Assembly (NCBI RefSeq): GCF_001011155.1
Contig: NZ_CP011479.1
Location: forward strand, 1,568,501-1,632,500
Length of the DNA stretch: 64,000 bases
Source: Hoeflea sp. IMCC20628
Lineage (GTDB): Bacteria; Pseudomonadota; Alphaproteobacteria; Rhizobiales; Rhizobiaceae
Direction of reading: 5' to 3'
In this document: positions 33,313 to 37,159 of the stretch, in pieces
Numbering within the stretch: the first letter of the stretch is position 1
How the letters are laid out: each line of letters opens with the position of its first letter
The notes under the pieces: model-generated
Told to the model about the DNA's origin: nothing
The model's database searches: none
What the model saw: the letters and a program-made list of their open reading frames with translations, nothing else
Program-made: the position numbers and the translations under genes

Positions 33313-33921
33313 GTGACTGACGTATCGAAAGCCGGGCAGGGCGGGGACATATCTCCCAAACGGCGCATCCGTGCCGACGCCCAGCGCAACGAGGACGCGG
33401 TGCTCGAAGCAGCAAAGCAGGTCTTCGCCACCTCAGGCGTCGATGCCCCGGTAAGGGACATCGCAGCCAGGGCCGGCGTTGGCGTCGGCACGCTCTATCG
33501 CCGCTTTCCCAATCGCTCCGATCTTGTCGCAGCCGTGTTTCGCCGCGAGGTCGATGCCTGTGCTGCCGAGGCCGCAACGCTCGCTGCTGCGCACCCGCCC
33601 GGCGAGGCGCTGTGGCGCTGGCTCAAGCGCTACACCGCCTTCATCGCCACCAAGAAGGGGCTCGCCGCGGCGTTGCACTCAGGCGATCAGGCTTTCGACA
33701 CGCTGCCGACCTATTTTCAGGCCCGGTTTGAACCAGCACTTGGGCGACTACTCGATGCCGCAGCCATGGCCGGAGAGATCCGCGACGGCGTAGCCCCCTA
33801 TGATCTGCTGCGTGCGGTCGCCAATTTGTCGGTCAGCAACAACGAGGACGGGCATGCCGACCGGATGCTGGATCTGATGATTGACGGGTTGTGCTATGGC
33901 GCGAAGGCCGCGAAGAAATAG
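33313..33921 (+). CDS. TetR-family regulator
   Basis: 202 residues from a GTG six bases after GGAG; the frame is open further upstream through the operator region, which cannot be protein. HTH: VRDIAARAGVGVGTLYRRFP preceded by AKQVFATSGVDAP. The C-terminal ligand domain is helical and ends LMIDGLCYGAKAAKK. It is probably an autorepressor that also controls the divergent hydrolase through the three shared dyads. A diverged copy of its last 40 codons sits about 1 kb downstream. Confidence 0.87.
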   Translation: MTDVSKAGQGGDISPKRRIRADAQRNEDAVLEAAKQVFATSGVDAPVRDIAARAGVGVGTLYRRFPNRSDLVAAVFRREVDACAAEAATLAAAHPPGEALWRWLKRYTAFIATKKGLAAALHSGDQAFDTLPTYFQARFEPALGRLLDAAAMAGEIRDGVAPYDLLRAVANLSVSNNEDGHADRMLDLMIDGLCYGAKAAKK

Positions 33922-34321
33922 CATCGGCAAATAGGCTGTCCGGGACTCACTCCGAGGAGCGGATCGGAGTGGAGCCAAACTGATAGCGGCGGATCTTGAC
34001 CGGGCGGTTCAACAACGCAAAACAATCGACGCAGCCTATGAGGATTGTCTTCTCGCTGCCGAACCGGGTGGTTTTGGCAGGCCGGCCGCAGCATCTCGCT
34101 GCTTGACAGGTAATGACTGATTTGGCGGCAGTTTGCCTTCTGTTATGACGAAACTGCACAGCTTTGCGCCACGATAAGCTGAATTTCCGAAGAGCTATGC
34201 AATTTTCGTATGGCTTGTATGGTTATATTGCACTGCACAAATCGATTAGATGCCCTATATTCAAAACATCGGAAGGCCACGGTGGTCAACCGGACAACAG
34301 CAGGACAAAGGGTGAGAAACC
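33922..34321. other. Intergenic, 400 bases
   Basis: Lies between the TetR gene and the DUF1127 gene. The last 100 bases are AT-rich and hold CCCTATATT at 34253, similar to the -10 of alphaproteobacterial RpoH (heat/oxidative stress) promoters; no clean -35 was found. Nothing else recognisable. Confidence 0.35.
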
Positions 34322-34462
34322 ATGAAATTGATCCGCTCCTACGCCAGCTGGCGGAAGTACCGCGAAACATGCGTCGAGCTTAACAGGCTTTCAGAACGCG
34401 AGTTGAGCGACATCGGCATGTCACGGCGCGATATTCCATTCGCCGCCCGGCGCGCCTTGTAG
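34322..34462 (+). CDS. DUF1127 small protein
   Basis: 46 residues, starting MKLIRSYASWRKYRETCVEL, then NRLSERELSDIGMSRRDIPF and ending ARRAL. The L-x-x-L-S-x-x-x-L-x-D-I-G-hydrophobic-x-R-x-x-I pattern is the DUF1127 (YjiS-like) signature, and the protein is Arg-rich. AAGGGTGAG lies before the ATG. In Rhodobacter, a DUF1127 protein (CcaF1) is encoded upstream of and cotranscribed with CcsR RNAs and acts in RNA maturation and turnover. The same layout is seen here. Confidence 0.88.
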   Translation: MKLIRSYASWRKYRETCVELNRLSERELSDIGMSRRDIPFAARRAL

Positions 34463-34475
34463 AAATTCAAGAATT

Positions 34476-34599
34476 CGGAGCGGCACCTCCTCCTCCCAAA
34501 TAGCCGCTTCGATGTGACTGGTGTTCATCCTCCTCCCGAGCATCAGTTTCCCAAAATGACGCCCACCGGATCCTCCTCCCCCGGTGGGCGTTATTTTTT
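34476..34599 (+). ncRNA. Anti-Shine-Dalgarno sRNA of the 'cuckoo'/CcsR (CCUCCUCCC) type
   Basis: Three consecutive stem-loops each expose CCTCCTCCC in the loop. Stem 1: CGGAGCGGC (34476) with GCCGCTTCG (34503), motif at 34486. Stem 2: ACTGGTG (34517) with CATCAGT (34541), motif at 34529. Stem 3: ACGCCCACCG (34559) with CGGTGGGCGT (34582), motif at 34572, ending in TATTTTTT as an intrinsic terminator. It begins 14 bases after the DUF1127 stop. This matches Rhodobacter CcsR1-4 and the rhizobial alpha-r14 'cuckoo' RNAs, which present anti-SD loops and respond to stress. It is probably processed from the DUF1127 mRNA. Confidence 0.85.
34559..34599 (+). terminator. Terminator of the DUF1127/sRNA transcript
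   Basis: A perfect 10-bp stem (ACGCCCACCG/CGGTGGGCGT) followed by TATTTTTT. The loop carries the third CCTCCTCCC motif, so it is also part of the sRNA. Confidence 0.88.
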
Positions 34600-34685
34600 G
34601 GGCAAGGCTCGGCGCCCCGCTAGTTGCAAAGCTGATTGGAGGAAGAGTGGTCCCGACACCCTGATGCCGGTTTTCGATCCAGAAC

Positions 34686-34838
34686 CTACCCCTGCAAATT
34701 CTGCTGCACCCAGCTGACAATGCCGCGGGCGTCCATGGCGCCGGCATGGCGGGCGACTTCCTGGCCCTTGTGAAACAGGATGATCAGCGGAATGCCGCGG
34801 ATCTGGAAGCGGTTGCCGACGCTCTGGTTGTTTTAGGT
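34686..34838 (-). pseudogene. Truncated copy of the trxC 3' end
   Basis: Reads QSVGNRFQIRGIPLIILF-KGQEVARHAGAMDARGIVSWV and then QQNLQG-stop, nearly the same as the last 48 residues of the trxC gene 2 kb downstream (QSVG to VRQNVKG). An in-frame TAA stands just before the homologous part and the WCGPC active site is missing. The shared DNA extends past the stop to CCAGAACCTACCCC in both places. It is a remnant of duplication or recombination, not a working gene. Confidence 0.8.
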
Positions 34839-34851
34839 GTTTGGCTCGGGC

Positions 34852-35004
34852 CAGATGCTCGATGCCGTGGCCAATCCGTCGGGTAGCAACAACGAGGACG
34901 GGCATACCGACCGGATGCTGGGTCTGATGGTCGACGGACTGCGCTATGTTGCGAAAGCCCCGCCAAACCATCTCGAAGTCAGGGACGCAGGACCCTGCTC
35001 CTGA
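34852..35004 (+). pseudogene. Truncated paralogue of the TetR gene 3' end
   Basis: Translates as QMLDAVANPSGSNNEDGHTD, RMLGLMVDGLRYVAKAP, matching DLLRAVANLSVSNNEDGHAD, RMLDLMIDGLCYGAKAA of the TetR gene 1 kb upstream. The HTH part is absent, and the frame runs to a stop about 12 codons after the similarity ends. It abuts the trxC remnant, so two unrelated gene ends were joined here. Confidence 0.78.
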
Positions 35005-35038
35005 TCAAGAGGGCACTTGTTCTTAATAAGTCGATCCT

Positions 35039-36463
35039 ATGATGCGCAAAAGCTCATATGACGCCAAGCTAGGAAGATCGATGGCAAGTCCAAAGCCGCA
35101 GCTCTCGCCGGCACTTGCCAGCCACTATTCAACGCGAATGGTCGTTGCCTTCCGTTACGGGGCCTTGGCACTTGCCGGTATCGGTTTGATCCAGGCCGTG
35201 ATCTTTGCCGCGATAGGTTCGTGGGTGGTGGTGGCCATGGAGCTTGCGGTTTTCATCGCCGGGCTGGCGATCTATCTGTTGATCCGGCGCGGTCATCTCG
35301 CTTTCGGAATTCTGGCCGGCCAGGCTGCATTGATGGTGATCGGAATCACCATGGGGCTGATACTCGATGTTCCGACGGCAGAAGCACCGCGGATAAGTCA
35401 TATGTATCTGCTTGTGGTGGCAGCTCTTGGCTATATCAATTATCAGCGCGCAAAATCGCGGGCGCAGCTGGTATTGATAGGCCTGTGTCTTCTGGCTTTC
35501 ATTGTACTCGGCAGCACGGCGTTGACTTCACCCTTTGTGGTGCTGCCTGACATTGCGCGAACCATCGGCACCTGGGCCAATGCATTCATGGCCACCACCA
35601 TGCTCGCAGCTTGCGTACATGTGATGCAGGCAGAACTCAGCCGCAAGGACAAGTTAAGCCGCGATCTCATCGCCGCCTTGTGGAATGACGAATTCCGGCT
35701 GGCCTATCAGCCGCAAGTCGATCTGTCGCAAACCACGACCGGCGCAGAAGCACTTCTGCGCTGGAACAGCCCGAAACGGGGTTTGGTTTCGCCCGCCGAA
35801 TTCCTTCCGCAGGCGGAAAAGCTTGACCTGATGATCGCAATTGGCGGCTGGGTGCTGGAAACCGGTTGCCGCACATTGGCCGAATGGGGCAAAAATCCAC
35901 GTTTGAAACACTTGACCCTGTCGGTCAATGTCAGCGCCAGCCAGCTCATGCACCATGATTTCGGGGCATTTGTGCACGACACACTGGTCAAAACCGGTGC
36001 GAACCCGAGGCTGCTGACCCTTGAACTGACCGAAAGCGTATTGGTGACTGACATCGAGTTGGTGATTGCCAAGCTCGATAGGTTGCGTGCACTGGGCATC
36101 ACCATTTCGCTCGATGATTTCGGGACGGGCTATTCATCGCTGTCATACCTGCGTCGTTTGCCGATCCAGGAAATCAAGATCGATCGCAGTTTCGTGCAGG
36201 ATGCGGTCAACAGTTCAGCAAGCGCTTCGCTGGTCAAGAATGTTGTCCTCATGAGCCACGATCTGGGTCACACTGTCCTGGCCGAAGGGGTGGAAACGCT
36301 GGAGCAGCACGATTTGCTGGCCCGGTTCGGCTGCATGCAGTTTCAGGGCTACCTCTATGGCAAACCAATGACATTGGCTGATTTTGAGCAACGCATCGAG
36401 GCTGAACCAAGGCGCACTGCCGCCATTTTGGGCGAGGCCTCTGTGCGCCAGTTTCGGCGATAA
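35039..36463 (+). CDS. Membrane EAL-domain cyclic-di-GMP phosphodiesterase
   Basis: 474 residues. About six hydrophobic segments cover residues 35-205, then an EAL domain (about 220-455). Catalytic motifs are intact: GAEALLRWNSP, the Asn in LSVNVSASQL, LELTESVL, ISLDDFGTGYSSLSYL (metal Asp pair), IKIDRSFV and LAEGVETLEQH. No GGDEF domain precedes it, so it should be a pure phosphodiesterase. It would lower cyclic-di-GMP in response to an unknown signal sensed in the membrane part. Confidence 0.88.
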   Translation: MMRKSSYDAKLGRSMASPKPQLSPALASHYSTRMVVAFRYGALALAGIGLIQAVIFAAIGSWVVVAMELAVFIAGLAIYLLIRRGHLAFGILAGQAALMVIGITMGLILDVPTAEAPRISHMYLLVVAALGYINYQRAKSRAQLVLIGLCLLAFIVLGSTALTSPFVVLPDIARTIGTWANAFMATTMLAACVHVMQAELSRKDKLSRDLIAALWNDEFRLAYQPQVDLSQTTTGAEALLRWNSPKRGLVSPAEFLPQAEKLDLMIAIGGWVLETGCRTLAEWGKNPRLKHLTLSVNVSASQLMHHDFGAFVHDTLVKTGANPRLLTLELTESVLVTDIELVIAKLDRLRALGITISLDDFGTGYSSLSYLRRLPIQEIKIDRSFVQDAVNSSASASLVKNVVLMSHDLGHTVLAEGVETLEQHDLLARFGCMQFQGYLYGKPMTLADFEQRIEAEPRRTAAILGEASVRQFRR

Positions 36464-36718
36464 CAACAAGTCACTGATTTTGATTGGTGTTTTTGAACGT
36501 TCCGCCGCTACGGCGCCGTGCTTCCAACCGGATGCGCCAAGGCCGGCGTAATTCTTTGAACCATGCAGAGGTGAGCCTGACGGAGGCTCGACTTTGTCAG
36601 CGCTGGTGAATGCCGTTGTCTGCAACGGACAGCAATTGCCTGCGCAACTTGTCCCGTCGTTGGTCGCAAAACCACTCAAATGCATTACCGGACGGTTTCG
36701 GGCAGTTAGGCCCAGAAC

Positions 36719-37159
36719 CTACCCCTTCACATTCTGCCGCACCCAGCTGACAATGCCGCGGGCGTCCATGGCGCCGGCATGGCGGGCGACTTCCTGGCCC
36801 TTGTCAAACAGGATGATCAGCGGAATGCCGCGGATCTGGAAGCGGTTGCCAACGCTTTGATGTTTTTCGGTGTCGAGCTTGGCAAAGCGAACATTTGGCG
36901 ACATCTGCTGGCCCGCATCGGCAAATCCCGGCGCCATCATCCGGCACGGCCCGCACCAGGGTGCCCAGAAATCGACCAGCAGCGGCACCTCGTCGCCCTT
37001 GAGGTGCTTGTTCAGCTTGGCCTCGTCGAGCTCGAAGGGAGCGTCAGGAAACAGCGGTGCCTTGCACACCCCGCAAGTAGGCTTGGCGCCCAGCTTGGCA
37101 GCCGGGATGCGGTTTTTTGCCTGACATTTGGGGCATACGATATGGATCGTGTCGGTCAT
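36719..37159 (-). CDS. trxC: Thioredoxin 2 with N-terminal zinc ribbon
   Basis: 146 residues from MTDTIHIVCPKCQ; longer in-frame starts are not supported. The zinc ribbon has Cys9/12 and Cys29/32. The thioredoxin fold follows with the active site FWAPWCGPC (Cys69, Cys72) and the cis-Pro in RGIPLIILF. TrxC is an oxidative-stress disulfide reductase. It ends seven bases before its neighbour's stop region. A truncated copy of its 3' end lies 2 kb upstream in the window. Confidence 0.92.
   Translation of the reverse strand: MTDTIHIVCPKCQAKNRIPAAKLGAKPTCGVCKAPLFPDAPFELDEAKLNKHLKGDEVPLLVDFWAPWCGPCRMMAPGFADAGQQMSPNVRFAKLDTEKHQSVGNRFQIRGIPLIILFDKGQEVARHAGAMDARGIVSWVRQNVKG

Follow-up and report, generated by a model that had tools for sequence, protein, structure and literature searches.

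A duplicated CIN1-type αr14 locus in Hoeflea sp. IMCC20628 and a related αr14 cassette in phage contigs

We analysed a stretch of 64,000 nt (the window), part of the 5.12 Mb genome of Hoeflea sp. IMCC20628, and found in it a CIN1-type locus, that is, a short DUF1127 gene directly followed by a CcsR/cuckoo-like RNA, here of the αr14 family. The observation holds up and is of an ordinary kind, a CIN1-type αr14 locus present in duplicate; specific to it are that it is the second copy of a locus of the genus, lying among duplicated fragments, and that its promoter has an LsrB-like box with one mismatch. We consider it probable that the RNA is cut from the DUF1127 mRNA and acts in trans by masking Shine-Dalgarno (SD) sites, and that the window copy, a duplicate confined to this lineage, raises its dosage. 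An αr14 cassette in phage contigs, outside the window, looks new and is the part worth following.

An αr14 RNA behind a DUF1127 gene

From the letters of the window, a first-pass annotation had described at 34322-34599 a DUF1127 ORF and then anti-SD hairpins, three loops each showing the motif and the last hairpin serving as terminator. The Pfam match of the ORF (PF06568, E 2e-13) and RNA folding bear this description out, and its coordinates agree with the ORF and the RNA that we found (Table 1). Folding of 34463-34600 predicted three hairpins with all three CCTCCTCCC motifs (34489-34497, 34529-34537 and 34572-34580) in terminal loops, at a minimum free energy of -59.1 kcal/mol (z -8.89), and none of 200 shuffles was equally stable. 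The motif alone is not rare, since CCTCCTCCC occurs 28 times genome-wide (8 of them in the three αr14 loci of this genome) versus 21 times for the reversed control; in the window, CCTCCTCC was observed 7 times, 4 of them at the locus, against 2.09 expected, and none of 100 shuffles reached 7.

Scanning the whole window with the Rfam model of αr14 (RF02344, curated cut-off 58.8 bits) gave a match of 92.2 bits (E 1.6e-15), whose start lies 7 nt behind the DUF1127 stop codon. Membership in CcsR1 (RF02791) was rejected, with 31.1 bits at 34514-34597 against a cut-off of 65.3. The Rfam check proposed with the annotation thus came out for αr14 and against CcsR1, and its match to a known design stands as regards cuckoo/CIN1 (DUF1127, anti-SD hairpins, terminator) and falls as regards CcsR identity. 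Three hairpins with CCUCCUCCC are the published form of αr14 (PMC10746234, PMC3927594), so the locus is not the "compact version" for which it had been taken. A TTG-started ORF of 53 codons at window 34164-34325 overlaps with its stop the start of DUF1127 (ATGA); in Sinorhizobium meliloti a DUF1127 gene is controlled by an upstream ORF (PMC12218461).

Table 1. Positions of the features discussed, in window coordinates unless a contig is named
Feature	Position	Strand	Evidence
LysR-type box TGCAATTTTCGTAT, one mismatch to LsrB box TGCA-N6-GCAT	34198..34211	+	sequence, genus alignment
TTGCACTGCACAAATCG element overlapping -35 region (CTGCAC 34233-34238)	34228..34244	+	18/18 genus loci
-10 like CTATAT, 16 nt behind CTGCAC	34255..34260	+	sequence, genus alignment
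Ribosome binding region AAAGGGTGAG; sister copy has AGAGGGAGAG	34307..34316	+	copy comparison
DUF1127 protein, 46 aa	34322..34462	+	PF06568 E 2e-13, 50.3 bits
αr14 sRNA (Rfam RF02344), 3'-UTR type	34470..34596	+	92.2 bits, model 1-123 of 123
Hairpin 1, loop with CCUCCUCCUCCC (34486-34497)	34475..34512	+	sequence, folding, covariation
Hairpin 2, loop with CCUCCUCCC (34529-34537)	34516..34548	+	folding, covariation
Hairpin 3 with CCUCCUCCC (34572-34580), intrinsic terminator and T run	34553..34597	+	sequence, folding, covariation
Duplicated segment: promoter, DUF1127, αr14	34192..34617	+	95% over 427 bp to C1:1868575-1869001, minus strand, same genome
Copied end of thioredoxin-like gene, 162 bp	34679..34840	.	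94% to window 36712-36873
Copied end of TetR-like gene, 100 bp	34863..34962	+	83% to window 33813-33912
Phage αr14 beside helicase	L460:11517-11636		above Rfam cut-off
Phage αr14 beside helicase	L429:5113-5233		above Rfam cut-off
Phage αr14 beside helicase	L453:7806-7931		above Rfam cut-off

The CIN1 locus and its cuckoo RNA were reportedly described by Reinkensmeier and Giegerich in 2015. A short DUF1127 gene and then CCUCCUCCC hairpins are common to that locus and ours, with no difference found in the order of the parts, and the combination of DUF1127 and RNA is published under the CIN1 name (PMC10253847). With NfeR1 of S. meliloti, the founding member of αr14, the Hoeflea RNA shares the full-length match, the three hairpins with CCUCCUCCC in each, the third a terminator, and, with one mismatch, a candidate LsrB-like box upstream. 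NfeR1, however, is free-standing and has its own promoter, a layout that does not appear directly in front of the RNA here: the DUF1127 ORF ends 7 nt before the RNA, which is the tail of that gene, and the box lies upstream of the gene. The CcaF1-CcsR1-4 locus of Rhodobacter sphaeroides likewise combines DUF1127 with anti-SD hairpins in the 3'-UTR, but there the RNAs number four, one of them described as having two stem loops (PMC3927594), and the promoter is of the RpoHI/RpoHII type (PMC10253847), whereas Hoeflea has one three-hairpin RNA and an RpoD-like promoter with a LysR box. The kinship of αr14-type and Rhodobacter RNAs is already in print (PMC3927594).

The annotation would have fallen if the loops were not conserved in related genomes, and this it survived: the 96 distinct αr14 sequences from the order and the genus contain 266 anti-SD motifs, and in 259 of these every base is unpaired within a closed hairpin loop. 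The rows counted were 67 above-cut-off matches from other genomes of the order and 31 of the 38 genus matches, seven weak ones without a fetched locus being left out. The stems vary across the genus alignment (18 rows, 17 distinct sequences) yet stay paired: 99.2% of the cells are paired and seven pairs are changed on both sides, 4 of them among the 11 pairs of hairpin 2, versus a mean of 1.7 in shuffled controls and 0 or 1 in slid versions, a control that favours the αr14 structure because this was drawn from one of the aligned sequences. Covariation over the 17 distinct genus sequences supports the αr14 fold.

At E 0.001, αr14 was detected in 63 of 199 genomes of the order (above the cut-off in 29) and in all 18 genomes of the genus (above it in 17). 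Of the 67 order matches, 45 (in 24 of 28 genomes) have a DUF1127 ORF, called by its own HMM, on the same strand no more than 400 nt upstream, and 31 have one no more than 150 nt away; the other 22 have none within 400 nt. Where αr14 copies stand in tandem after a single gene, each was counted. In the genus, 18 of 20 above-cut-off matches are linked to DUF1127, as are none of the 11 low-scoring two-loop matches examined. These latter form a free-standing αr14-like gene of 37-46 bits (L003 at G000:C1:3110358-3110504, L115 and L118-L126), with a terminator without anti-SD and, in 10 of the 11, a TGCAATGCAGCAT element upstream.

Promoter and duplication of the locus

Transcription would start near 34267, as inferred from the sequence, which puts the TGCAATTTTCGTAT box at about -69 to -56, upstream of DUF1127. 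All 18 DUF1127-αr14 loci of the genus have TTGCACTGCACAAATCG and then a CTAT-type -10, and farther upstream 17 of them have TGC(A/G)-N6-NNAT in the same alignment columns, that of G201 being one base shorter. The best match to the LsrB box has at most one mismatch in 15 of the 18 loci and two in the remaining three. A single one-mismatch box is weak, because 66 of 1000 random 170-nt window segments match the LsrB box as well; it is the conserved place of the box across the genus loci, which are related sequences, that carries the argument that LsrB may control the locus. LsrB and VtlR are probably akin. NfeR1-type regulation also includes an NtrC motif, TGC-N11-GCA. NfeR1, which has an LsrB box TGCA-N6-GCAT near -72 to -60, is activated by LsrB (PMC10746234), and in Brucella VtlR controls three DUF1127 genes (PMC12595884). 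We did not find LsrB control and linkage to DUF1127 joined in the literature searched, and the available text of PMC10746234 names DUF1127 nowhere.

The sister copy at C1:1868575-1869001 sits in an array with two further DUF1127 genes. From the -35 region to the ribosome site both copies have the same 83 nt, and their RNAs differ by one substitution (34548, at the end of stem 2, where a G-C pair becomes G-U) and by a single T in the tail of the terminator. The DUF1127 ORFs differ at three places, two of them silent and the third a missense change from Gly to Arg (SRGDIP), at a residue that is Gly in 12, Ser in 4 and Glu in 1 of the 17 other genus copies. On these counts the RNA seems to be held at least as tightly as the protein, although the numbers are small. 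Partial gene duplications surround this DUF1127 copy as a patchwork (window 33813-36873), with fragments that we label thioredoxin-like and TetR-like from reading their ORFs; in another genome, G211, the matches to these two genes lie 53 nt apart.

Proposed action of the RNA, alternatives and possible targets

In the reading that we favour, a single transcript from the LysR-box/RpoD-like promoter would encode the 46-aa DUF1127 protein and carry the αr14 sRNA at its end. The RNA would be released from the message immediately after the stop codon and act in trans, any of its three CCUCCUCCC loops pairing with GGGAGGA-type SD sites to block the start of translation, and the window copy, as a lineage-specific duplicate, would add to RNA dosage. 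The silencing step from loop to ribosome site is modelled on NfeR1, a Hfq-independent RNA of 123 nt with three redundant anti-SD motifs, whose loops pair with ribosome binding sites and silence messages in trans (PMC10746234). Release by RNase E is modelled on CcaF1-CcsR, where CcsR1-4 are cut from the DUF1127 mRNA by this enzyme (PMC10253847, PMC8625941), and where the DUF1127 protein CcaF1 binds RNA and promotes CcsR maturation (PMC10253847). The masking of SD sites is the most likely role of the αr14 RNA.

Hairpin 3 is a terminator, and the stop codon ends 7 nt before the start of the RNA model, as would suit hairpins that merely reinforce the terminator and protect the 3' end of the DUF1127 mRNA, with no action in trans. 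We regard this as improbable, given that the 259 loops of 266 keep their anti-SD motif unpaired while the stems change, that 22 of the 67 order matches have no DUF1127 gene within 400 nt, and that NfeR1 acts in trans (PMC10746234). The annotation had raised, as a speculative role, the titration of ribosome sites or RNA-binding proteins under stress. The same 22 matches speak against a titration role in which the RNA would bind up a protein, perhaps DUF1127 itself, instead of pairing with mRNAs. Titration would fit the RNA binding of CcaF1 and its part in CcsR maturation (PMC10253847), as well as the 45 order matches that come after a DUF1127 gene, but the loop is complementary to the SD sequence and NfeR1 silences through its loop (PMC10746234), and we give titration an equally small chance.

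Better placed than either of these, but still doubtful, is the view that only the array copy at C1:1868.6 kb works, the window copy being a functionless duplicate in decay. Two DUF1127-linked αr14 genes occur in only one of the 18 genus genomes among the loci examined, fragments of two neighbouring genes adjoin the window copy, its ribosome site is changed, and it has Arg where 12 of 17 genus copies have Gly; on the last two points the copy may be decaying. Against this stand the 83 nt from promoter to ribosome site identical to the sister and an RNA with a single substitution. We retain the reading of a CIN1-type locus whose window copy would raise the dosage of a trans-acting, SD-masking RNA.

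As candidate targets we took genes of the same genome led by GGGAGGA-N4..9-ATG (101 sites, of which 86 were taken from 100 listed, after removal of a transposase leader present in 12 copies and of 2 sites listed twice), which gave 83 distinct proteins, 75 of them of at least 60 aa. Substrate-binding families, which overlap, were frequent: DctP 9, SBP_bac_1 8, SBP_bac_8 8, Peripla_BP_6 4, Peripla_BP_4 4, NMT1 2, NMT1_3 1 and Phosphonate-bd 1. The control leader AAGGAGA (118 sites, 70 taken, 68 distinct proteins, 58 of at least 60 aa) gave SBP_bac_8 3, SBP_bac_6 2, SBP_bac_5 1, OpuAC 1 and Peripla_BP_6 1. We then compared samples of the first 30 GGGAGGA-led genes from two other genomes. G136, which has αr14, gave Peripla_BP_4 3, SBP_bac_5 2, SBP_bac_1 2, SBP_bac_8 2, Peripla_BP_6 1 and SBP_bac_3 1 among 24 proteins scanned; G019, with no αr14 match, gave TctC 4, Peripla_BP_6 2, DctP 2, SBP_bac_5 1, SBP_bac_8 1 and SBP_bac_1 1 among 26. 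Because G136 and G019 are alike, the bias is independent of αr14 and gives no evidence for a regulon of transporter binding proteins, which we rejected. On sequence grounds αr14 could pair with the mRNAs of these proteins; control of them is not implied.

GGGAGGA-led genes thus often encode ABC, TRAP or TctC substrate-binding proteins in all three genomes (L150-L279, L320-L379). A many-copy transposase-like gene (326 aa) has the identical leader GGGAGGACGAGGCATG at L159, L160, L167, L170 and 12 further places.

An αr14 cassette in phage contigs

A scan of IMG/VR for the triple motif returned 65 matches on 64 stretches; 16 loci were set aside by eye as apparent coding repeats. Of the 65 matches, 40 have a phage-type helicase gene on the other strand, its 3' end 32-184 nt away from the array. 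Scores above the αr14 cut-off were obtained for L460 (80.5 bits), L429 (81.2), L453 (70.8), L418 (109.2 and 107.8) and L439 (59.4), and also for L474, L488, L526 and L531, and not for L427. L418, L427 and L439, which have no helicase beside the array, may be host DNA. Seven proteins surround the L460 copy, five of which match PHROGs for primase, helicase, methyltransferase or exonucleases, while one matches a PHROG of unknown function and one is porin-like with no PHROG match.

We grouped the helicases of the best 80 of 100 viral loci, counting arrays where at least 400 nt of downstream sequence were available; many phage loci are near-identical and not independent. Among these best 80, the array is present in 16 of 26 loci of group A (90-100% to the L460 helicase), in 14 of 28 of group B (53-57%) and in none of 23 of group C (61-72%). 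We set array-free relatives, six in group A and five in group B, against one carrier each. In two of the six (L480, L475) the helicase end is followed at once by DNA that in the carrier comes about 395 bp later; in the other four a longer stretch is missing or different. In three of the five (L532, L535, L528) the DNA that follows comes about 500 bp later in the carrier, and in the other two different DNA is found there.

The phage RNA shows both-side changes in 8 of 31 pairs (16 sequences). An exact TGCA-N6-GCAT lies 83 nt before the first anti-SD motif in 16 of 16 group A arrays, and occurs in 2 of 1000 random window segments; the exact LsrB box is found in none of the 14 group B arrays. The phage RNA is preceded, on its own strand, by a short terminator hairpin with GGGAGG at its head and no start codon, present by pattern in all 16 group A and 13 of 14 group B arrays and in none of 98 other αr14 loci. 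Between this element and the αr14 loop the longest perfect complementarity runs to 7-8 nt in 15 of 16 variants and to 6 nt in the other; in the 260 nt upstream of the 98 other loci the longest complement is at most 5 in 94, 6 in three and 7 in one. Judged against shuffles of each sequence, the match is no more than moderately unusual (p about 0 to 0.06, the weakest 0.27), and in the three examples folded the motif partly pairs with bases just 5' of it.

Another genus of the same family, g116, has a chromosomal counterpart: a homologous stretch was found in seven of its genomes among the matches listed (best 74-82% per genome), the homology reaching over the candidate decoy part in six of them. 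Of the seven g116 loci read (L546-L552), five have an 8-nt complement, one has a 7-nt complement without a hairpin and one has other DNA between. No helicase was near the chromosomal homologue in the 15 family loci tested. With this counterpart in g116, the phages may have captured a two-part host device of RNA and decoy. In the arrangement we propose, the cassette sits between the helicase gene and the next gene, the GGGAGG terminator RNA first and then the αr14 RNA, and the former would pair with the αr14 loop as a decoy. On balance we lean, by a narrow measure, towards the view that rhizobial-type phages carry an αr14 presence/absence cassette of decoy RNA and αr14, maybe a captured host device that taps a stress/nitrogen circuit.

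Among isolated phages, blastn gave no record for the window RNA or the phage RNA, and six isolated relatives of the helicase, Rhizobium phage 16-3 among them, have no αr14 within about 2.5 kb of the gene. No report of phage αr14 was found in the open-licence literature searched, including the text of PMC3927594. The plasmid matches include one Sinorhizobium record with 75% identity to part of the window stretch and 50 records (43 from Rhizobium) that are 60-90% identical to part of the phage αr14.

For the family, the origin of the αr14 RNA as a DUF1127 tail becomes testable, because 45 of the 67 above-cut-off order matches come after a DUF1127 gene. Should the phage cassette be expressed, it would amount to an anti-SD RNA carried by a phage, with a host-type switch and a built-in candidate decoy, and would raise the question of what a phage gains from masking ribosome sites.
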